This document shows, piece by piece, positions 4,220 through 42,885 of a DNA stretch of 43,464 nucleotides. The notes beneath the pieces were generated by a model that did not search any database, was not told the DNA's origin, and worked only from the letters and a program-made list of their open reading frames with translations. The DNA comes from Maribacter sp. (GTDB lineage: Bacteria > Bacteroidota > Bacteroidia > Flavobacteriales > Flavobacteriaceae), in assembly GCA_024228355.1 (NCBI GenBank), contig JAAETN010000526.1, positions 1 to 43,464 on the forward strand. The letters are read 5' to 3'. How positions within the stretch are numbered: the stretch's first letter is position 1; each line of letters begins with the position of its first letter. The translations under genes were made by a program, and so were the position numbers.

Positions 4220-5365
4220 TTAAATATTCAAGTCGATGGCAAAATTTTTAATCTTGTCAACTATTGTATCATAATCCTCTAAACGAGAAACAAAATCCAT
4301 TTCCCCCACATCGATAATCAATGTGTTTTGTTCAGGATAACTTTTGAAAAAATCAAAATAACCCTTGTTTATTTTATCTAAATATGAGGGTTCAATACTT
4401 TGTTCATAGGCCCTTCCGCGATTTTTGATATTTTGCAACAAGCGTTCTGTTGATTGGTACAGGTACACATAGATTCGAGGTTTTTTAACCTCTCTGTACA
4501 TCAGATTAAATAACTTTCTATATAGATTGAATTCATCTTTTTGCAAGGTAACCTGTGCAAAAATGAGCGATTTATAAATATCGTAATCACTTACCATAAA
4601 GTTCTTAAAAAGGTCAAACTGAGAGGTGTCATCGGTAAATTGTTGATAACGATCAGCTAAAAAAGACATTTCCAAGGGAAATGCATATCGTGCCTGGTCC
4701 TCATAAAATTTAGGTAAAAATGGGTTGTCTGCAAAACGTTCCAAGACCAACTTGCCCTTATAATCCTCTGCAATTCTGTTCGCCAATGTGGTCTTTCCAG
4801 CTCCAATATTACCTTCAATTGCGATAAAACTTAGGCTTGAAAAAAGTTCTTCATTAGTTTTATAAAGTTTTAAATTGGTCCTAAACGGTTGACTTTTATC
4901 CTTGCATTCCTGTAATAGATTCCTAGTATCCCTTCCAAGAACAGGATGATAGAATTGTGGAGCAATATCGGCAAGTGGTAAAAGAACGAAATTACGCTCA
5001 TGAAGCTTAGGGTGAGGAATGGAAAGACTATCGGATTGTAGGATTTCATTCCCATAATACAGAATATCAATGTCTATATTCCTAGATTCATAACCACTTT
5101 CTTGAGTCCGTACCCTGCCCATTTTTTTCTCAATGAGCAGAATTTTTTCCAGAATGACACTTGGTGTTAAATTGGTTTCGATTTCCAAGCATGCATTTAA
5201 GAAATCGGGAGCATCAAATCCCCATGAAGGACTTTCGTAAACTTTGGAAATATTTCTTACTTTACCAATTCCATTACCTAAGAGAAAAACCGCTGTCTGT
5301 AGGTTTTGCAGACGGTTACCAAGGTTGCTTCCTATAGAAAAATATACCTTTTTGAGTTCGATCAT
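4220..5365 (-). CDS. folK: Bifunctional HPPK (FolK) / deoxynucleoside kinase fusion
   Basis: 381 residues with two enzymes in one chain. Residues 1 to about 155 are 6-hydroxymethyl-dihydropterin pyrophosphokinase of folate synthesis, with GSNLGNR near 12-18, ESPSWGFDAPDFLN, and the Mg-binding pair D98/D100 in SRNIDIDILYYG. From about 178 it is a deoxyribonucleoside kinase, with P-loop GNIGAGKTT (185-193), LER glutamate (E209), DRY (238-240) and lid RGRAYE (317-321). The two activities belong to folate synthesis and dNTP salvage. The start is ATG at 5365, since the frame extends upstream with no family match. Divergent from sppA. Confidence 0.93.
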   Translation of the reverse strand: MIELKKVYFSIGSNLGNRLQNLQTAVFLLGNGIGKVRNISKVYESPSWGFDAPDFLNACLEIETNLTPSVILEKILLIEKKMGRVRTQESGYESRNIDIDILYYGNEILQSDSLSIPHPKLHERNFVLLPLADIAPQFYHPVLGRDTRNLLQECKDKSQPFRTNLKLYKTNEELFSSLSFIAIEGNIGAGKTTLANRIAEDYKGKLVLERFADNPFLPKFYEDQARYAFPLEMSFLADRYQQFTDDTSQFDLFKNFMVSDYDIYKSLIFAQVTLQKDEFNLYRKLFNLMYREVKKPRIYVYLYQSTERLLQNIKNRGRAYEQSIEPSYLDKINKGYFDFFKSYPEQNTLIIDVGEMDFVSRLEDYDTIVDKIKNFAIDLNI

Positions 5366-5404
5366 AATATTGAAACAAAGTAAACAAAACAATTTCACTT
5401 TGGT

Positions 5405-5412
5405 TATCTTTG
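5405..5412 (+). promoter_or_regulatory. Flavobacterial -7 box for sppA (TATCTTTG)
   Basis: TATCTTTG matches the TAnnTTTG consensus and lies 25 bases before the sppA ATG at 5437. No clear TTG -33 box is seen at the usual distance, so only the -7 element is called. Confidence 0.45.
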
Positions 5413-5436
5413 GTCGGTAATAAAAACAAGATTGTA

Positions 5437-7194
5437 ATGAATTTTTTGAGAAATCTTTTGGCGGCAATTATTGGCTGCTTAATAGCTTTTGGAATTATAT
5501 TTATTATGTTCATTCTTTTTCTGAGCTTATTGGGAAGCTCTGAAGATGGGGTAGTAATAAAGGATAATTCTATTTTGGAATTGCAAATGCAACATCCCAT
5601 AAATGATTATGTGGGTAATAAAGAGGACCCTTTTGCAAGCTTTTTTGGTCAGGCCCAGGGATTGGATGAAATTCTGCATGCTATCCGAGTGGCAAAAAAC
5701 GATACTGACATAAAAGGCATAAGTATCAGCAATAATTTCATTAGGGCCGGTCTAGCCCAAACCCAGGCCATTCGAAAAGCATTGAAAGATTTTAAGGAAA
5801 GTGGAAAGTTCATTTACACTTATGGTGACTTTTACATGCAGAAAGATTATTATTTGGCAAGCGTGGCAGACTCTATCTTTCTAAATCCTGTTGGTGGTAT
5901 GGATTTCAAGGGCTTATCGACTGAAATATTGTTTTATAAGGATCTTCAGGAGAAAACGGGGGTGAAAATGGAGGTGATTCGCCATGGTAAGTATAAAAGT
6001 GCCGTTGAACCTTTTTTAGCGAATGAGATGAGCGATGCCAATAGGACACAAATCAAGGAACTGATTAGTTCTTTATGGGATACCATGGTTGCTGATATTT
6101 CTGAAGGTAGGAATATAAGTGAGGAAAATGTTAATATTATTGCAGATACTCTGGGAGGGAGGTCCCCTAAATATGCCAAAGCTTCCGGGTTGGTTGATGA
6201 TGTTTTGTTCTTTGATCAATATGAGGACAAACTTCGGTCGGCCATTTCATTGGATTCCGAGGATGAGATCAATTATGTATCGCTAAAAGATTATACGAAG
6301 CATTCAAACAAAAAATCCTTAAAAAAAGGCGATGATAAAATTGCCGTAATATTTGCCCAAGGAGAAATATTATATGGTGAAGGTGGTCCCAAGATTATTG
6401 GTCAAGGAATTATTAATAAGGCACTTATTAAGGCCCGTGATGATGATAAGGTAAAAGCCATTGTTTTGCGAGTAGATTCACCTGGCGGAAGTGCGTTGAC
6501 TTCAGATATTATCTGGCGCGAAGTAGAGCTGGCCAAAGAAAAGAAGCCTGTCGTTGTTTCAATGGGCAATGTAGCGGCATCTGGCGGATATTATATTGCA
6601 GTTGGCGCTAATAAGATTTTTGCCGAACCCACTACGGTTACCGGGTCTATTGGGGTTTTTGGGACAATCCCCAATATCAATGAACTCGCGGCCGATATAG
6701 GTATTAATGCCGAGCAGGTAGGGACCAACAAGAATTCGGTAGATTATTCATTATTCGAACCAATGACCGACAATTTTAGGAAAGTGGTCCAGGATGGCAT
6801 CGAGCAGACCTACGATACTTTTTTGGAACGTGTTGCACAAGGCAGGAATATTACTGTGGCACAGGCCGATAGTATGGCCCAAGGAAGGGTTTGGAGCGGT
6901 GTAGATGCCAAAAATTTGGGATTGGTCGATGAGCTGGGTAATTTGGAAGATGCCTTAGCGGCGGCAGCTGAATTGGCCGAAATTGAATCGTATGGGATCA
7001 AAAAATATCCGAAATACAAAACTGGCTTCGAAAAATTCATGGAAGATATGAGCTCGGTAAAATCAAGAATAGGACAAAACTTTATAAAAGAGGAGCTAGG
7101 TATGGAAACCTATGATATCTTAAGGCAAATGAAATCTACAATGGAACAAAAAGGGGTACAGGCCAGAATGCCCTTTGTGCTGGATATCAAGTAA
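5437..7194 (+). CDS. sppA: Signal peptide peptidase SppA, long (67K) type
   Basis: 585-residue membrane-anchored serine protease that cuts up cleaved signal peptides. One N-terminal transmembrane segment is visible (about residues 6-33). It has two tandem crotonase-like halves. The catalytic dyad is split between them: Lys187 in GKYKSAVEPF and Ser382 in NVAASGGYYIA, as in the E. coli 67K enzyme. The start is the ATG at 5437. A TTG 27 bases upstream overlaps the -7 box and is unlikely. The queuosine-transporter gene follows 3 bases after the stop, so they are probably co-transcribed. Confidence 0.95.
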   Translation: MNFLRNLLAAIIGCLIAFGIIFIMFILFLSLLGSSEDGVVIKDNSILELQMQHPINDYVGNKEDPFASFFGQAQGLDEILHAIRVAKNDTDIKGISISNNFIRAGLAQTQAIRKALKDFKESGKFIYTYGDFYMQKDYYLASVADSIFLNPVGGMDFKGLSTEILFYKDLQEKTGVKMEVIRHGKYKSAVEPFLANEMSDANRTQIKELISSLWDTMVADISEGRNISEENVNIIADTLGGRSPKYAKASGLVDDVLFFDQYEDKLRSAISLDSEDEINYVSLKDYTKHSNKKSLKKGDDKIAVIFAQGEILYGEGGPKIIGQGIINKALIKARDDDKVKAIVLRVDSPGGSALTSDIIWREVELAKEKKPVVVSMGNVAASGGYYIAVGANKIFAEPTTVTGSIGVFGTIPNINELAADIGINAEQVGTNKNSVDYSLFEPMTDNFRKVVQDGIEQTYDTFLERVAQGRNITVAQADSMAQGRVWSGVDAKNLGLVDELGNLEDALAAAAELAEIESYGIKKYPKYKTGFEKFMEDMSSVKSRIGQNFIKEELGMETYDILRQMKSTMEQKGVQARMPFVLDIK

Positions 7195-7197
7195 GAC

Positions 7198-7908
7198 ATG
7201 AACCAGAAGGATAAAAAACTAGCGTACAAAATTTATCTGTATCTGGGAGCATTGTTCATTACCTCCTTGGTAGTGTCTAATTTAATCTTTCAAAAATTCT
7301 TTTATTGGAATCCATTTGGAGAAGTGGAGGTTTTTGGTGCACCACTATTTGAAGTCTCAGTAGGCATTTTACCCTATCCGATTACTTTTCTGATAACCGA
7401 TTTGATCTCGGAGATTTTTGGTAAAAAGAAAGCCAATCAGATAGTAACTGCCGGTATATTCGCATCATTTTTTTCAATGGGAATCGTATTCTTGGCCGAT
7501 TTTGTCCCGGCAATAGAAAACTCACCAGTTGATAATGGGGTCTTTAGTAAAGTTTTCGCACTATCACCCGTTGCTGTATTGGCCTCAATGCTGGCCTATT
7601 TGTTCGCACAATATGTAGATATTGCGATATATCATTTTTGGAAGCGATTGACCAAGGGCAGACACCTGTGGTTACGAAACAACTTCTCGACTTTTTTGTC
7701 CCAATTTATCGATACGTTTACCGTGGTAAGTCTACTTTGTCTTTTTAAGGTTTTACCGTGGAGTATGTTCTATGGATTGGTCATAAGCGGTTTTCTTTTC
7801 AAAGTATTAATTGCATTCCTCGACACCCCTTTTCTTTATTTCTTCGTATATCTTCTTAGAAAACGCTTTGGTCTAAAAACGGGTGAAGAAATAAATCTGG
7901 AAGCATAA
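7198..7908 (+). CDS. yhhQ: Queuosine-precursor transporter, YhhQ (VUT) family
   Basis: 236-residue inner membrane protein with about six hydrophobic segments. The family imports preQ0/preQ1 for queuosine modification of tRNA. Recognisable features are SNLIFQKFF near the first helix, LPYPITFLITDLISEIFGKKKA, and the later NNFSTFLSQFIDTFTVV, which match the conserved PxTF...DxxxExxG and SQxxDT motifs of YhhQ. It starts 3 bases after sppA. It may be the second gene of a short operon, although the two roles are not obviously linked. Confidence 0.88.
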   Translation: MNQKDKKLAYKIYLYLGALFITSLVVSNLIFQKFFYWNPFGEVEVFGAPLFEVSVGILPYPITFLITDLISEIFGKKKANQIVTAGIFASFFSMGIVFLADFVPAIENSPVDNGVFSKVFALSPVAVLASMLAYLFAQYVDIAIYHFWKRLTKGRHLWLRNNFSTFLSQFIDTFTVVSLLCLFKVLPWSMFYGLVISGFLFKVLIAFLDTPFLYFFVYLLRKRFGLKTGEEINLEA

Positions 7909-7959
7909 AATAATCCTTCTTTACAAGAGTTATAGTCCTAGATAAACACTTGTTATACC

Positions 7960-10686
7960 ATGAAGAAGAAAATCCTGAAATTTGTTGGCGTTGTATTGCT
8001 TGTTTTGGTTGGAGTCCTTATTGCTGCACCATTTCTATTGGAAGCTAAAATAGGCGATATTCTCAAAAACAATATTAACAATAATGTCAATGCTACTTTG
8101 GATTTTTCTGAAGCTAATTTAAGTCTAATCAAAAGCTTTCCCAATGCGAAGGTCGAACTCAAGAATGTAACACTGATTAACAAAGAGCCATTCGAAGGAG
8201 ATACGCTCTTTGCTTCAGAGCGAGTTGGTTTAAAAATGGGCATTGGTGATCTGTTTAAGGGCGATGGGGAAGCTATTGGCATCAAAAGCTTAGTAGTTGA
8301 TGGAGCTCAAATTCATGTGAAAGTCAATGAAGATGGGAACGCTAATTATGAGATAGCCAATGAGGATGGTAATGAAGAACTGGAATCGTCAGAAGGTTTT
8401 ACCTTGAATCTACAATCTTATGAAATTACAAATTCAGATGTCATCTATGATGATAAGGTTGCCAAGGTTTATTTAGTGGTTTCCGAAATTATGCACAGCG
8501 GTTCGGGTGATCTTTCGGTAGAAACGTCAGAATTGGATACAAAAACCGAAGCTTTGGTCACTTTTGAATTGGATAACACCAATTATCTCAATAAAAACAA
8601 AGTCAAATTGGATGCCCTCATCGATATTGACCTGAAAGAGGATAAATATACTTTTTTGAAAAACAAGGCAATGGTAAATCAGTTGCCTTTGGTATTTGAT
8701 GGCTTTGTTCAGGTGAACGAAGAAAGCCAGGAAGTTGATATCAATTTCGAAACCCCTTCTTCCGATTTTAAAAATTTCTTGGCTTTGATACCCGAAGCCT
8801 ATTCAAAAAACATAGAGAACGTAGAAACTACGGGAGAATGTATAGTCGAGGGTGAGTTTAAAGGATTGGTTGATGATGAACATATTCCAAAATTCAAGAT
8901 TGAGGTAAAATCCGATAACGCCTCATTCAAGTATCCTGACCTCCCCAAAACGGTACGGAACATTCATTTGGATATATTAGTGAATAATACAAGCGGCATT
9001 TCTGAAGACACTTATATAGATATTAGGAAAGCTTCATTTATGATAGACCAAGATAGATTCAACCTTTCCTCCAAAATCACCGATCTTATGGGTAATTCCA
9101 AGGTCAATGCCCAGATTAAGGGAATTTTGAACTTGGCCAATATTTCCAAGGCCTATCCAGTCCCTTCAGATTTAAAACTTTCCGGAATTTTGAATGTCGA
9201 TGTAACAACGGCTTTTGATATGGCCTCAATCGAGAGAAAGCAATACGAAAACACCAAGACATCGGGTAAACTAAAACTGAGTGATTTTGAATACAATTCC
9301 CCTGAAATCCGAAATCCAGTAAAAATCAAAAATACCGCAATGACATTCAATCCTGCCACGGTGACTTTAAATGAATTACAGGGGACAACCGGTCAAACCG
9401 ATTTCAATGCCACAGGCACAATTGACAATCTATTGGGATATATGTTCAATGATGAAAAAGTTGAAGGCAATTTCAATCTAAAATCGAACACCTTTGCTGT
9501 AAACGATTTTATGAGCGAGGAAGAAGTTGATCCAACTGGGATACCCAAGGCTGAAGAACAGTTGAAAATCCCCTCTTTTTTGGATTGTAATATCAATGCC
9601 AGTGCAGGGACGGTTATCTATGATAATCTTAGGTTGAAAGATGTTAAAGGAAATTTGAGGATAGTTGATGAAAAAGCCGTGCTGACCAATATGACTTCTT
9701 CACTCTTCAATGGAACCGTAGGGTTCAACGGAGAGGTTTCCACTAAAAACGAGGTCCCGACTTTTGCCATGAAATTGGGTATGGATCAATTGGGTATAGG
9801 AGAAAGCTTCAAGTCGCTCGAATTATTCAAGGTCTTGGCCCCCGTAGCCAATGCGCTGCGAGGTAAGTTGAATTCCGACATCGAATTGTCAGGTAGTCTT
9901 AACAATGACTTTACTCCCAATCTTAACACCATAACAGGCAAGGTATTGGCAGAATTATTGTCTACCCAAATTAATGCAGATCAAGCAAAAGTACTTTCTG
10001 CACTGGGAAATAAACTCAATTTTATCAAGTTGGATAAACTCGATTTAAAAGGCTTGAAAACAGCATTGTCTTTTGAGGATGGTACGGTAAAAGTGAAGCC
10101 TTTTACAATTAAGTATGAAGATATTTCTATCAATGTAGACGGTAGCCATACCTTCGATAGAAAATTGAATTACAAAGCAACTTTGGATGTCCCGGCCAAA
10201 TACTTGGGGACTGAAGTGAATGACCTGATTGCAAAAATTGATGAAAAAGAACTTAACAATCTGACCATTCCCGTAACCGCTAACATTGGTGGAAAATACA
10301 CCAGTCCGGCGGTGACTACCGATTTGACTTCAGGGGTAAAGAATTTGACCACGAAACTAATCGATATTCAAAAACAGAAATTGATCAATAAAGGAACAGA
10401 CAAAGCAGGCGAACTGTTAGGGGATATATTAACAGGAAATACTAATGATAAGGATTCGACATCGGTATCACAACAAGATCAATCCAACGATGCTGTGAAG
10501 GACGTAATAGATGGAATTTTAGGTGGTACAAAGCAAACCCAAGATTCGGTCGGTCAAGAAAATGATACCTCGTCCACTTCAAAAAAAGATCCTGTTCAGG
10601 ACGCCGCAAAGAGCATTTTAGGAGGATTATTGGGAGGAAAAAAGAAAAAGGATACCACCAAAACCGAGAACGATACCATTAACTAA
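7960..10686 (+). CDS. AsmA-family envelope protein
   Basis: 908 residues: an N-terminal membrane anchor (about 5-27) followed by a very long periplasmic beta-rich region typical of AsmA/TamB-like proteins. In that superfamily, bridge-like proteins are linked to phospholipid movement between the membranes. Recognisable segments are the N-terminal LSLIKSFPNAKVELKNVTL and a C-terminal AsmA_2-type region near 560-790. The last 120 residues are low complexity (Asp, Thr, Lys, Gly), with two copies of an AxxxIxGxLGG-like unit. The gene overlaps the convergent DUF2797 gene by 8 bases at the stop codons. Confidence 0.85.
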   Translation: MKKKILKFVGVVLLVLVGVLIAAPFLLEAKIGDILKNNINNNVNATLDFSEANLSLIKSFPNAKVELKNVTLINKEPFEGDTLFASERVGLKMGIGDLFKGDGEAIGIKSLVVDGAQIHVKVNEDGNANYEIANEDGNEELESSEGFTLNLQSYEITNSDVIYDDKVAKVYLVVSEIMHSGSGDLSVETSELDTKTEALVTFELDNTNYLNKNKVKLDALIDIDLKEDKYTFLKNKAMVNQLPLVFDGFVQVNEESQEVDINFETPSSDFKNFLALIPEAYSKNIENVETTGECIVEGEFKGLVDDEHIPKFKIEVKSDNASFKYPDLPKTVRNIHLDILVNNTSGISEDTYIDIRKASFMIDQDRFNLSSKITDLMGNSKVNAQIKGILNLANISKAYPVPSDLKLSGILNVDVTTAFDMASIERKQYENTKTSGKLKLSDFEYNSPEIRNPVKIKNTAMTFNPATVTLNELQGTTGQTDFNATGTIDNLLGYMFNDEKVEGNFNLKSNTFAVNDFMSEEEVDPTGIPKAEEQLKIPSFLDCNINASAGTVIYDNLRLKDVKGNLRIVDEKAVLTNMTSSLFNGTVGFNGEVSTKNEVPTFAMKLGMDQLGIGESFKSLELFKVLAPVANALRGKLNSDIELSGSLNNDFTPNLNTITGKVLAELLSTQINADQAKVLSALGNKLNFIKLDKLDLKGLKTALSFEDGTVKVKPFTIKYEDISINVDGSHTFDRKLNYKATLDVPAKYLGTEVNDLIAKIDEKELNNLTIPVTANIGGKYTSPAVTTDLTSGVKNLTTKLIDIQKQKLINKGTDKAGELLGDILTGNTNDKDSTSVSQQDQSNDAVKDVIDGILGGTKQTQDSVGQENDTSSTSKKDPVQDAAKSILGGLLGGKKKKDTTKTENDTIN

Positions 10687-33969: not shown

Positions 33970-34794
33970 ATGAAGTTCCTGAAAAGAATATTTAATTTTT
34001 ACTTGGATGCTAGTATCCATGTGGGATTAGCCGTATTTGCCTTACTCAAGGTTACATCTATTCTTTTTAAGGTTGAATTGAGTAATCATCTATCTTTTTT
34101 TGTCTTTTTGGGAACTATTGTCTGCTATAATTTCATTAAATACGGGGTAGAAGCTGGTAAGTATATTTTGGTCAATAATAGATATCATAAAAGTATCCAG
34201 ATTTTTAGTTTAGTTGCTTTTGTTTTTGGCTGCTATCACGGATATTTTTTAAGTATTGATTCGTGGCTGATAATTTTGATTTTAACGGGTTTGACTGGTT
34301 TATATGCGTTGCCAGTACTACCGCAATCCAATAATTTAAGAAGCCTTGGCGGACTTAAAATATTTCTCGTCGCAATAGTCTGGTCAGGGATAACAGTTGT
34401 TTTGCCCTATACTGAAATAAGTAGGATTTTAGTTTGGGATGACTGGGTAGAAGTAGTACAGCGATTATTGTTGGTTTTAGTGTTAATGATTCCTTTTGAG
34501 ATAAGGGATTTGGCTTATGATAAACCCGAATTAAAGACCATACCGCAGCGTATAGGCGTAACAAAAACCAAAATTTTTGGCAGTTTTTTAGTACTTTTCT
34601 TCTTCTTCTTGACTTTTTTAAAGGATGACATATCTGAATTGGAACTTATTGCAAAGGCCGTGCTTTTTTTGATTTTGGGAGGATTGATGATTATAACCAA
34701 ACGCGATCAAACGCGATATTTTGCCTCTTTTTGGGTCGAATTCGTTCCCATTTTCTGGTGGTTTTTGATTTGGGGCCTCACGTTCTATTATTAA
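33970..34794 (+). CDS. UbiA-superfamily-like membrane protein
   Basis: 274 residues with about eight membrane helices. The second aspartate-rich motif of UbiA prenyltransferases is visible as EIRDLAYD (D180, D184), followed by KTIPQRIG (189-196), and YALPVLP matches a family loop. The first motif, normally NDxxDxxxD, reads YNFIKYGVE here (N54, E61 remain), so the usual metal-diphosphate site is incomplete. It may be a non-prenyltransferase relative. The gene is alone on its strand, and its stop codon overlaps the convergent anti-sigma-like gene by 4 bases. Confidence 0.72.
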   Translation: MKFLKRIFNFYLDASIHVGLAVFALLKVTSILFKVELSNHLSFFVFLGTIVCYNFIKYGVEAGKYILVNNRYHKSIQIFSLVAFVFGCYHGYFLSIDSWLIILILTGLTGLYALPVLPQSNNLRSLGGLKIFLVAIVWSGITVVLPYTEISRILVWDDWVEVVQRLLLVLVLMIPFEIRDLAYDKPELKTIPQRIGVTKTKIFGSFLVLFFFFLTFLKDDISELELIAKAVLFLILGGLMIITKRDQTRYFASFWVEFVPIFWWFLIWGLTFYY

Positions 34795-35018
34795 ATTTTA
34801 TCCTGCAGGTCTTTTTTCATTATCAATTTGTCTTTAGCAGGCAAACAGTGAAGTGGTGCTTTATCACAGAGCGCAGTTAGTTCGGCGTTCCTTTTAGAAA
34901 ATTTAGAGCAGGTATTACAGTAGAGTAAGTGCATTACCAATTTTATTTTTTCTATAAAAGACGCTTCCTTATATTGTTTTTTGTTGCAGATTATAGCTGC
35001 CTCATCACACGAAATCAT
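34791..35018 (-). CDS. Small zinc-binding anti-sigma-like protein
   Basis: 75 residues, soluble, with no membrane segment. C4, then H30-x3-C34-x2-C37, gives a Cys-x25-His-x3-Cys-x2-Cys spacing that matches the zinc anti-sigma (ZAS) pattern; the C-to-H spacing equals that recalled for RsrA (C11, H37, C41, C44). Three more cysteines (C11, C51, C58) are present. It starts one base after the sigma factor stop (TAA-T-ATG), strongly suggesting translational coupling. The sigma-binding role is inferred from the motif and the neighbour. Confidence 0.72.
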   Translation of the reverse strand: MISCDEAAIICNKKQYKEASFIEKIKLVMHLLYCNTCSKFSKRNAELTALCDKAPLHCLPAKDKLIMKKDLQDKI

Positions 35019-35019
35019 A

Positions 35020-35574
35020 TTAAAACCAATTTTGATTCAGGCAACCCATCAAGGCAGTTCTGGCCCTATGTATCATTACCCAAAGGTTAGACGGATTTAT
35101 CCCGAGTTCTTTACAAATATCTTCTGTGCTCATACCTTGAATGGTCTTCATTATAAAGACCAATGATTGTTTTTTTGGTAATTTGGAAATGCATTCCTGA
35201 ATAGCCAAACCTAATTCCTCATTTTCAATTCTATCATTTTCCAACGTACTAATGGGGTCGGCTACTTGTTCCTCTAACCAATCACCATCAGTATCGCTGT
35301 GTGAGCTATAGCTCATACGAACTTCAGCTTTTCCTTTATTAGAATATATCTTTCGATAATGGTCTATTACCTTTCTTTTGAGAATTGCAATTAGCCAGGT
35401 GCGCTCGGCTGCTGTACCTTTATAGTTCTTGGCTGACTTCAATCCGGCAAAAAATGTTTCCTGCACCAAATCTTTTGCAACCTCAGTATCACTTACGCGA
35501 GATACTGCATAATTAAAGAGGTAATCAGCGTATTGATCTACCCAATTTTCTGGATGTAACTGGTGCGTCTCCAT
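35020..35574 (-). CDS. ECF-type RNA polymerase sigma factor
   Basis: 184 residues with the two ECF domains. Region 2 includes AKDLVQETFFAGLKSAKNYKG, then TWLIAILKRKVIDHYRK. Region 4 includes LPKKQSLVFIMKTIQGMSTEDICKELGI, then NLWVMIHRARTALMGCL, a helix-turn-helix. A charged linker (about 90-125) separates them. The start is ATG at 35574; a TTG 21 bases upstream is less likely. It is followed by the ZAS-like gene and is divergent from the rhodanese lipoprotein. Confidence 0.92.
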   Translation of the reverse strand: METHQLHPENWVDQYADYLFNYAVSRVSDTEVAKDLVQETFFAGLKSAKNYKGTAAERTWLIAILKRKVIDHYRKIYSNKGKAEVRMSYSSHSDTDGDWLEEQVADPISTLENDRIENEELGLAIQECISKLPKKQSLVFIMKTIQGMSTEDICKELGINPSNLWVMIHRARTALMGCLNQNWF

Positions 35575-35601
35575 GAATTTTGTTATTCTTCCCAAAAGTA
35601 G

Positions 35602-35635
35602 TTGATTTTTTTGTTAACAAATATGTTTATTTTTA
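35602..35635. promoter_or_regulatory. Divergent control region with palindrome TTTGTTAACAAA
   Basis: The 78-base gap between the sigma gene and the rhodanese gene contains a perfect 12-base palindrome (35610-35621). On the plus strand, TTG (35602-35604) and TATTTTTA (35628-35635), 23 bases apart, form a likely promoter for the rhodanese gene with the palindrome in its spacer. The same palindrome lies upstream of the sigma gene start. Confidence 0.5.
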
Positions 35636-35652
35636 GAGCAAACTAGTTTAGC

Positions 35653-36009
35653 ATGAAGAATTTCATTTTAGTTGCCGTTGTTCTTTTATTTAATTTTGGA
35701 TGTTCCCAAATAAAAGAAAAGCATATCACAGAAGTCTCACGGAGCGAACTTGAAAATGTGATTTTAGTTGATGTGAGAACCCCAAAGGAGTTTAATGCTG
35801 GTCATTTGGAGAATTCATTGAATATTGACTGGTTAGGGGATAGTTTTATAGAGGAATTTGAAAAAATCAAAAAAGACAAGTCCATTTACCTTTATTGTAG
35901 AAGTGGTAGGCGAAGTGCCTATGCGACCAAGTACCTTGATTCTTTGGGATACACAAGCGTTTACAACCTAACAGGAGGATATATAGCTTGGGAAGAAAAG
36001 AACAAGTAA
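35653..36009 (+). CDS. Rhodanese-domain lipoprotein
   Basis: 118 residues. A short signal peptide ends FNFGC (C17), so the protein is likely lipid-anchored in the periplasm; no surface-export signal follows. One rhodanese domain fills the rest. LVDVRTPKEFNAGHLENSLNI is the entry motif, and the active loop is C82-RSGRR (82-87), carrying the sulfur-accepting cysteine. Possible roles are sulfur transfer or handling of periplasmic thiols. It is divergent from the sigma/anti-sigma pair and meets the M3 peptidase gene with a 1-base gap. Confidence 0.88.
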   Translation: MKNFILVAVVLLFNFGCSQIKEKHITEVSRSELENVILVDVRTPKEFNAGHLENSLNIDWLGDSFIEEFEKIKKDKSIYLYCRSGRRSAYATKYLDSLGYTSVYNLTGGYIAWEEKNK

Positions 36010-41831: not shown

Positions 41832-42833
41832 ATGACCGAAGGAAACTTTGTTGATTATGTGAAGATTCATGCCAGCTCAGGTAAGGGTGGTAAGGGTTCT
41901 GTACACTTACATCGAGAGAAATATATAACAAAAGGAGGTCCAGATGGAGGTGATGGTGGTCGTGGTGGTCATGTGATAGTTCGTGGCAACAAGAATTTGT
42001 GGACCCTGGTGGGATTTAAATTCAAAAGGCATTTTAAAGCTGGTCACGGTGGTCACGGCAGTAAAAACAGAAGCTCGGGAGCCGATGGTGAGGATGTTTA
42101 TATGGATGTTCCCTTGGGTACTGTTATTAGGAATTCTGAAAATAGTGAGGTTCTTTTCGAAATCACAGAAGTTGGTGAAGAAAAAATCCTTGTGGAAGGT
42201 GGTATGGGAGGCCGCGGAAACTGGCATTTTAAATCTTCTACGAATCAAACACCTCGTTACGCTCAACCAGGTGTTGAGGGTAAGGAGATTGACGTAACGC
42301 TTGAACTTAAAGTATTGGCCGATGTTGGTTTGGTCGGTTTTCCCAATGCAGGTAAATCTACATTGCTGGCCGCCATTACTTCGGCTAAACCCAAGATTGC
42401 AGATTATGAGTTTACTACATTAAAACCCAATTTGGGTATTGTTCAGCACCGTGATTTTCAAAGTTTTGTTATGGCCGATATCCCGGGTATTATTGAAGGC
42501 GCTGCAGAAGGTAAGGGGCTTGGACATTACTTCTTAAGGCATATTGAACGCAATGCAACGCTTTTGTTTTTGATTCCGGCCGATAGTAATGATATCAGCA
42601 AGGAATATGGTATTCTTTTGGATGAGCTTAGAAGATATAATCCGGAGTTGTTGGACAAAGAAAGATTAGTGGCTATTTCCAAAAGTGATATGCTAGATGA
42701 AGAATTGATGGGGGAAATGAAAATTGAATTGGACAAGGATTTTACCGATGTTCCTTATCTGTTTATATCCTCAGTTTCGCAGTTAGGTATCCAAGAACTT
42801 AAGGATAGACTCTGGGTGTTATTAAACGATTAA
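41832..42833 (+). CDS. obg: Obg/CgtA GTPase
   Basis: 333 residues. An essential GTPase in late 50S ribosome assembly and stress control. The glycine-rich Obg domain (about 1-158) has [13 protein letters not shown] and [14 protein letters not shown]. The G domain follows: G1 [10 protein letters not shown]3 [17 protein letters not shown], and G4 SKSD where most GTPases have NKxD. There is no C-terminal OCT extension. It has its own promoter and is followed at 53 bases by the DUF4136 gene. Confidence 0.97.
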
Positions 42834-42885
42834 ACCTTACAGAAGTACCAATCTCTGCTATTTTTCTTTAAATTTATGTAAAACG

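Follow-up and report, generated by a model that had tools for sequence, protein, structure and literature searches.

A predicted promoter inside the gene of its own sigma factor, and a candidate thiol-stress switch in Flavobacteriaceae

Contig JAAETN010000526.1 of Maribacter sp. (assembly GCA_024228355.1), analysed over its 43,464 nucleotides (nt) and called the window below, carries on its minus strand a gene for an extracytoplasmic function (ECF) sigma factor and, directly downstream, a gene for a small soluble anti-sigma factor of the zinc type. Comparison of this pair across the Flavobacteriaceae and beyond points, with a probability that we put at about three in four, to a redox-controlled sigma/anti-sigma switch that has the methionine sulfoxide reductase gene msrB and the thioredoxin reductase gene trxB as its regulon and a feedback promoter embedded in the sigma gene, with the divergent rhodanese gene next to the pair as a bystander. 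It also seems likely, if a little less so, that the DNA coding for region 4 of the sigma factor is at the same time a promoter for that very sigma factor, with synonymous codons locked by selection across the Flavobacteriaceae and an exact motif in six Bacteroidota genomes of other families. Free sigma factor would thereby make its own inhibitor, an autoregulated promoter upstream of the gene would replace the embedded one in three genomes, and the regulon, consisting of msrB, trxB and a small RNA linked to tyrS, is not described in the literature searched.

The locus is laid out as follows:

35020-35574, minus strand: ECF sigma factor gene, 184 amino acids from ATG; Pfam Sigma70_r2 (1.2e-12) and Sigma70_r4_2 (1.4e-15), both above cut-off
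34791-35018, minus strand: gene for a 75-amino-acid soluble zinc-type anti-sigma factor with Cys4/His30/Cys34/Cys37; NCBIfam NF052368 antisigmaE (1.1e-10)
35090-35115, minus strand: predicted promoter for the sigma factor, located within its own gene and differing at one position from TGTAAG-N16-CG[AT]C
35593-35600, minus strand: housekeeping-type -7 box TACTTTTG of the sigma/anti-sigma operon, of the form TAnnTTTG
35628-35635, plus strand: housekeeping-type -7 box TATTTTTA of the rhodanese gene, one mismatch to TAnnTTTG
35653-36009, plus strand: exported rhodanese gene, a probable bystander; Pfam Rhodanese (4.1e-21, 75.8 bits)

An earlier reading, made from the letters of the window alone (the sequence-only reading), had described an anti-sigma gene one base behind an ECF sigma gene and a gap of 78 bases to the rhodanese. 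Both distances hold, as position 35019 separates the sigma stop from the 75-residue frame and positions 35575-35652 lie between the sigma ATG and the rhodanese ATG. An alternative, TTG-started frame would extend the sigma gene to 35595.

On the minus strand, the embedded site reads TGTAAA (35115-35110), N16, CGTC (35093-35090) and then TAA. It lies 71 nt before the anti-sigma ATG, in the codons of sigma residues 154-162 (C-K-E-L-G-I-N-P-S) in region 4. The 100 family loci used for comparison are the better-scoring of 203 anti-sigma matches, some on short contigs having been passed over, and are not a random sample. Among 100 family sigma genes, that of the window included, 98 hold the motif within one mismatch and six hold it exactly. 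When synonymous codons were drawn according to each locus's own usage, only 8.4 such genes were expected, and none of 500 simulations reached 98 (the codon draws and the codon profile each drop one family locus, L119 in the draws, which gives 100 with the window).

The same constraint was observed codon by codon. In a profile over all 184 positions, residue 161 ranks first (CCG 57, GCG 41, CCA 2) and residue 162 second (TCT 87, TCA 8, TCC 5), and their codons jointly spell CGTC. An xCG codon stands at residue 161 in 98 of the 100 genes against a background in which CCG makes up 16% of the proline and GCG 12% of the alanine codons, and the 87 TCT codons at residue 162 compare with a background usage of 24% of serine. 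The -35 side is less sharply held (ranks 8 and 10), with TGT in 99/100 vs 62% and AAT for 82 of 82 asparagines vs 63%. Neighbouring codons are mostly little constrained, residues 164 and 170 showing some constraint, and since these neighbours vary freely among the genomes, kinship alone is no explanation of the frozen codons. We infer from this pattern that the embedded motif is a sigma-dependent promoter for the anti-sigma gene.

Beyond the family, 20 loci (201 kb in all) that came from a search of the phylum with NF052368 were fetched, all of them outside Flavobacteriaceae. The recurrent upstream motif in these loci is TGTAAGG-N15-CG[AT]C. Exact copies (TGTAAGG-N15-CGWC) number 19, compared with a mean of 0.15 and at most 1 in mononucleotide shuffles; here and in every other motif or box test, the shuffles preserve base composition only. 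The copies lie before sigma, DsbD-like, MNIO-operon, YHS-like and DoxX-like genes, and also inside four sigma genes. No exact copy was found in eight of the 20 loci, one of which, L243, encodes MsrA/MsrB. By our own count, 16 of the loci have a related sigma gene: three of these carry an upstream copy, TGTAAGG-N15-CGAC (L248, L249, L250), six an exact embedded site (L242, L247, L252, L253, L255, L257) and seven neither, and the upstream copy and the embedded site never occur together. The pair lies beside MsrA/MsrB fusions in L243 and L255, a DsbD/thioredoxin protein in L253, an AhpC/TSA-family protein and a molybdopterin oxidoreductase in L248, and a DUF417 protein, again in L243. Ten proteins of the distant loci were searched against Pfam and eight matched, the exceptions being the YHS-like protein and the small protein that comes first in the operon of L257. 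In that locus (4420-8011), the pair is followed by an operon that has a TGTAAGG-N15-CGTC site in front of it and encodes an MNIO enzyme of the HvfB family together with an HvfC-type protein. Hvf is the name of the Haemophilus cluster to which we return below.

Within Flavobacteriaceae, two repair genes stand behind the motif TGTAAG-N16-CG[AT]C. It was found within one mismatch in the 200 nt upstream of msrB (of this subtype) in 25 of 29 cases, compared with 0.14, and at most 1, in shuffles, and upstream of trxB in 12 of 25 genomes with the anti-sigma factor and in 0/5 without it. The upstream regions of four neighbouring genes, taken as a control, gave 0/342. For each of the two genes 30 loci were examined, of 41 (msrB) and 60 (trxB) genomes searched, and the msrB set leaves out one paralogue below 200 bits (L376). 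In the genome of the window, the motif precedes both trxB and msrB (TIGR01292 and TIGR00357, both above cut-off). Within one mismatch, the motif has 42 matches in this genome, one of them the embedded site, and 30 were inspected as loci; six of these 30 are intergenic and lie at trxB (L264), msrB (L266), a lipoprotein gene (L262), a gene for a membrane-type protein (L267), a gene for a 450-amino-acid enzyme (L289) and a contig edge (L274). A tightened pattern has eight exact matches, of which four are intragenic, one (window 42816-42841) overlaps the end of the gene at 41832-42833, and one is L274. The remaining two, trxB and msrB, are the only intergenic ones with a downstream gene.

Co-occurrence points in the same direction. 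Of the 49 genomes that have the anti-sigma factor, 29 also encode the MsrB subtype; of the 11 that lack it, none does (one-sided Fisher 2.5e-4, kinship uncorrected). The sigma orthologue is missing in 10 of those 11, the other one, G058, having a fragment. This piece (G058:C97:3895-4086) spans 69 residues at 63% identity with an internal stop, and is either a relic or a contig-edge effect. Six of the 18 exact TGTAAG-N16-CGACTA matches in 60 family genomes precede msrB. Promoter conservation thus predicts that the sigma factor of the pair controls msrB, and the thiol and oxidation repair theme of the sequence-only reading finds support in these two predicted targets. The MsrB of the window genome has no signal peptide by eye.

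In relatives, the sigma factor may also direct a small RNA. The exact motif TGTAAG-N16-CGACTA was found in four loci (L378, L379, L381, L384) between a luxE-like gene, a label that rests on NF052244 (70 of 550 bits), and a convergent tyrS; in a fifth (L388) it lies beside the same luxE-like gene with one extra gene before tyrS. In all five, a stretch of 83-97 nt without a clear open frame comes after the motif and closes with a hairpin. Among 58 tyrS flanks taken without preselection (L395-L452), 23 of the 48 from genomes that have the anti-sigma factor and none of the 10 from genomes that lack it had the promoter within one mismatch, compared with 0/58 on the opposite strand and 0.6 in shuffles. 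A GGTTGGTTAG-type element was found in 25 of the 58 flanks, and 19 had both element and promoter. What is predicted at L378 (1418-1528, minus strand) and the other four loci is a small RNA that depends on the sigma factor, measures about 83-97 nt and combines a GGTTGGTTAG-type element with a hairpin as terminator. The RNA was not found at tyrS in the window's own clade, that is, in its own flank of 235 nt, in G032 and in six relatives, as far as the contigs show. A search of eight genomes for the element gave 14 places, none with the promoter within two mismatches where the upstream sequence suffices; the reversed control is uninformative here, as the pattern reads alike backwards. Rfam gave 0 matches in the seven loci searched. 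In Flavobacterium psychrophilum, 85 new RNAs have been reported (PMC9723704), and Neisseria SigE controls an RNA of 74 nt (PMC3240639).

The anti-sigma protein was detected by protein search in 203 of 249 Flavobacteriaceae genomes, and the sigma gene adjoins its gene in 100 of 100 fetched family loci. The published definition of a zinc-containing class I anti-sigma factor (ZAS) is C/H-x23-26-H-x3-C-x2-C (PMC7907618). The protein has Cys4-x25-His30-x3-Cys34-x2-Cys37, the spacing that the sequence-only reading had given, and the ZAS gene order, directly downstream of an ECF sigma gene, holds in all 100 loci. Cys4 and Cys34 are conserved in 100/100 of these, and His30 and Cys37 in 97/100. Three further cysteines had been pointed out and are present, of which the family keeps Cys11 (99/100) and not Cys51 (45/100) or Cys58 (37/100). 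In an alignment of 43 rows with five distant homologues, Cys4 and Cys34 alone stay invariant, and because of this, Cys11 may be a family-level addition. The proposed pairing of a redox-type zinc anti-sigma factor with an ECF sigma factor is thus supported by motif, gene order and family conservation. MseR of Neisseria meningitidis has the same Cys4/His30/Cys34/Cys37, of which Cys34 is described as essential, Cys4 and Cys37 as important and His30 as dispensable (PMC2893595).

The protein had no Pfam match even at E 1. Against NF052368 antisigmaE it scores 41.2 bits, the cut-off being 50, and a search with that family across 198 genomes of the phylum gave 103 matches with six above cut-off; since the score lies below the cut-off and so few genomes pass it, the protein was not assigned to NF052368. 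An AlphaFold2 model has four helices (mean predicted local distance difference test, pLDDT, 91.5). With this model, the first nine rows of a Foldseek search are sigma/anti-sigma complexes or anti-sigma domains (RsiW, MucA, DdvA, RslA), all of them weak (E >= 0.42, with RsiW best at E 0.42). In a VIA comparison, Z was 7.3 for RsiW, with a root mean square deviation (rmsd) of 7.7, and 6.7 for an AlgU-MucA entry, of which 53 residues superpose at rmsd 2.3. The resemblance of the model to class I anti-sigma proteins is suggestive. A search of the PDB by sequence gave 0 matches up to E 10. Four family genomes (G102, G086, G177, G217) have two anti-sigma matches each, and those of G102 lie in tandem (G102:C4:49293-49938, minus strand).

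The sigma/anti-sigma operon itself appears to be driven by a housekeeping promoter. The sequence TAnnTTTG is the -7 box of the primary sigma factor (sigma-A) in F. psychrophilum (PMC9723704), and of 154 non-redundant loci 135 have it no more than 45 nt from the sigma ATG, with a mean of 4.0 and at most 9 in shuffles; the 154 were reached from 181 by setting aside 13 with an aligned sigma start other than ATG and merging duplicates. The ECF-type motif was present within one mismatch upstream of the sigma gene in 1 of 101 Flavobacteriaceae loci, with 0.65 in shuffles. Upstream autoregulation of the sigma gene via TGTAAG was considered as a candidate and, on this count, was not seen in Flavobacteriaceae; it is seen in the three distant loci named above.

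The sequence-only reading had joined the pair and the rhodanese into a three-gene unit and asked whether the three stay together across Flavobacteriaceae. They do not: the pair is kept in 100 of 100 loci, and a divergent rhodanese within 400 nt of it is found in 33 of the 100 and in 50 of 80 named near relatives. Rhodanese-bearing loci are mostly those of the closest relatives: the first 40 loci fetched, which are the most similar, account for 29 of them and the remaining 60 for 4, which makes the rhodanese a clade-level neighbour. It had been called a lipoprotein with a CRSGRR loop; the Pfam domain and the loop are there, and the lipobox (N-F-G-C) is atypical. Of the 84 adjacent rhodaneses (33, 50 and that of the window), 78 passed the active-site pattern, and among these a loose lipobox was found in 49, the CRSGRR loop in 5 and a CKKGGR loop in 41. 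TGTAAG-N16-CG[AT]C within one mismatch was found in 0 of 34 rhodanese upstream regions. TAnnTTTG lies on the rhodanese strand in 60 of 83 loci (those of the 84 with a gap of 20-200 nt), compared with 7.2 in shuffles, the window copy having one mismatch. The rhodanese was rejected as a regulated partner on these two counts and is probably a bystander on its own housekeeping promoter.

The pair is otherwise flanked on one side by a gcvP-like gene (95 of the 100 family loci) and a membrane-protein gene (97), and on the other by an M3-peptidase-like gene (86). The labels gcvP, M3 peptidase, ubiA-like, purE, purK, tyrS, DoxX-like and YHS-like are our own reading of the sequences, without confirmation by family search, and the ubiA-like protein had no Pfam family above cut-off. 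Between the sigma and M3-peptidase-like genes, instead of or beyond the rhodanese, a minus-strand island recurs (e.g., L078, L085, L104, L108-L110, L112, L127, L129, L170, L177). Its contents, again as labelled by us, include helix-turn-helix regulator-like genes in 28 loci, epimerase-like genes in 22, methyltransferase-like genes in 14, and others.

Several observations weigh against a redox switch with this promoter and regulon. Curated NCBIfam cut-offs are missed by both proteins, the best of 96 families for the sigma factor, TIGR02943, giving 128.7 bits where 162.2 are required. The embedded -35 is usually TGTAAT (80%), which is weaker than TGTAAG; the trxB and msrB sites of the window genome each have one mismatch in the -10; and the trxB site is mostly CTAC and overlaps a housekeeping TAnnTTTG box, an arrangement of ECF box over housekeeping box that looks like a dual promoter. 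Nor does the motif stand out genome-wide. Within one mismatch, the window genome has 42 matches vs 104 for the reversed pattern, or 97 vs 169 when the pattern is tightened, and in the 60 family genomes exact TGTAAG-N16-CGACTA occurs 18 times vs 22 reversed. For lack of such enrichment, it is position and conservation that carry the regulon call. A regulon call from genome-wide matches alone was rejected, as these do not exceed the reversed-pattern control. Most genomes that lack the anti-sigma factor are small (1.5-3.1 Mb), so that the co-loss may be genome reduction. Finally, neither peroxide nor diamide nor singlet oxygen elicited a response of the SigE targets in meningococci (PMC2893595), and cysteine spacing is therefore no proof of redox sensing. 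On the supporting side stands Haemophilus rpoE2, whose expression rises with HOCl and H2O2 (PMC7907618).

The same meningococcal result favours a structural zinc site in a switch that senses zinc, copper or another ligand and not oxidation, as do the zinc-independent binding of RsiW to its sigma factor (PMC7406223) and the MNIO/HvfB genes that adjoin the pair in some distant relatives. The predicted targets here are nonetheless thiol and methionine repair enzymes, and Cys11 is kept in 99 of 100 family loci beyond the four ZAS ligands, so that we regard a non-redox signal as unlikely, though worth taking seriously. Less probable is a codon constraint that is real but serves something other than a promoter, for instance a structure in the mRNA or the coupling of translation to the anti-sigma start. 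The closeness of the site to that start, the nearly touching genes and the moderate constraint on residues 164 and 170, outside the motif, would all suit such a role; the constrained bases, however, spell out both blocks of the independent motif before msrB and the tyrS-linked RNA, with identical spacing, and three relatives with a sigma-type promoter upstream do without the embedded one.

The promoter could also belong to another ECF factor with which the pair merely co-occurs, and the window genome does have eight further sigma-like matches to this sigma factor (E <= 0.001). This has a slim chance, given that genes related to this very sigma gene carry the motif in front of them or internally, that 10 of the 11 anti-sigma-free genomes also lack the sigma orthologue, and that those of the 11 that were inspected do not have the motif at trxB (0/5) or at tyrS (0/10). 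It is hardly more probable that the sigma factor controls the divergent rhodanese in a compact envelope response to sulfur or redox stress. In favour of that view, the rhodanese is the first, divergent gene in the slot in 80 of 81 loci of its cluster, and its adjacency persists in the third of the family loci and the 50 near relatives counted above; the missing sigma motif, the housekeeping box of its own and the 67 of 100 loci that hold the pair without an adjacent rhodanese all speak against it.

Under the preferred reading, a redox-controlled switch, sigma and anti-sigma factors would be co-transcribed at a basal level from the housekeeping (sigma-A) promoter, so that inhibited sigma factor would always be in the cell. 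Oxidation of Cys4, Cys34 and Cys37, perhaps together with Cys11, would lead to loss of the presumed zinc and release of the sigma factor, by analogy with RsrA and MseR. Free sigma factor would then recognise TGTAAG-N16-CG[AT]C and transcribe msrB, for the repair of oxidised methionine, and trxB, for thiol reducing power; the small RNA next to tyrS would be a further target in many relatives, and genes of the Msr, DsbD-like, peroxiredoxin-like or MNIO/HvfB kinds would be targets in more distant ones. By firing the embedded motif, it would produce an anti-sigma-only transcript that shuts the response off, while thioredoxin reductase would help to reset the switch, as proposed for SigR/RsrA. The rhodanese would stay on its own housekeeping promoter, outside the switch.

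For the pair, the analysis provides a predicted promoter sequence, targets open to testing, a proposed feedback circuit and a clean signature at codon level. If the reading is true, msrB, trxB and the tyrS-linked small RNA belong to a thiol-stress sigma regulon of Flavobacteriaceae, and one stretch of DNA is written under two codes, protein and promoter, with the encoded protein reading that promoter. Few ECF factors of Bacteroidetes have a class I anti-sigma factor assigned to them (6%; PMC7406223), and because of this rarity, together with the lack of a Pfam match, a family-wide redox switch may have gone unnoticed.

No description of the pair, the promoter or the regulon in Flavobacteriaceae was found in searches of the open-access literature, not all of them directed at this question, most subscription papers and preprints lying outside this scope. 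The sequence-only reading had not recognised the grouping as a described system; as a whole it is indeed absent from the literature searched, but its sigma/anti-sigma half resembles SigE/MseR, RpoE2/HrsE and SigR/RsrA (PMC2893595, PMC7907618). SigE/MseR of N. meningitidis, by published description, has the same four ligand positions in a small soluble anti-sigma factor encoded directly downstream, msrA/msrB as main target, the 74-nt sigma-dependent small RNA and a DoxX-linked operon; unlike in Flavobacteriaceae, where a housekeeping box is found, its sigma operon is autoregulated from upstream (PMC2893595, PMC3240639). Such upstream autoregulation, taken as a trait of the SigE/MseR and RpoE2/HrsE type of response, is not seen here, with the motif in a single one of 101 sigma upstream regions. 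RpoE2/HrsE of Haemophilus influenzae shares a cytoplasmic ZAS anti-sigma factor (67 amino acids), an MsrAB target and a DoxX-containing cluster, but its targets are periplasmic, whereas those predicted here are trxB and the MsrB without a visible signal peptide (PMC7907618). One distant Bacteroidota pair, in addition, adjoins HvfB/HvfC-family genes. With Streptomyces SigR/RsrA, the likeness lies in the zinc ligand spacing, a thioredoxin-system target and feedback through thiol reduction; it differs in having one SigA- and one SigR-dependent start before sigR, and the passages cited mention no internal promoter (PMC2893595, PMC3489674).

The closest precedent for the circuit is SigH/RshA of Corynebacterium glutamicum, where a SigH-dependent promoter inside sigH was shown experimentally to give an rshA-only transcript, which was suggested to guarantee an excess of anti-sigma factor and a fast shut-off (PMC3489674). 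There, as here, the genes nearly touch, the operon is driven by housekeeping promoters and an internal sigma-dependent promoter serves an anti-sigma-only transcript (both by prediction here), and we count its disulphide stress regulon as a likeness as well; its promoter is of the GGAAT-type / GTT kind, in another phylum (PMC3489674). This precedent lowers the novelty of the circuit, yet it supports the reading of the embedded site as a promoter, which in this case lies in region-4 codons and is conserved family-wide and in six distant genomes.

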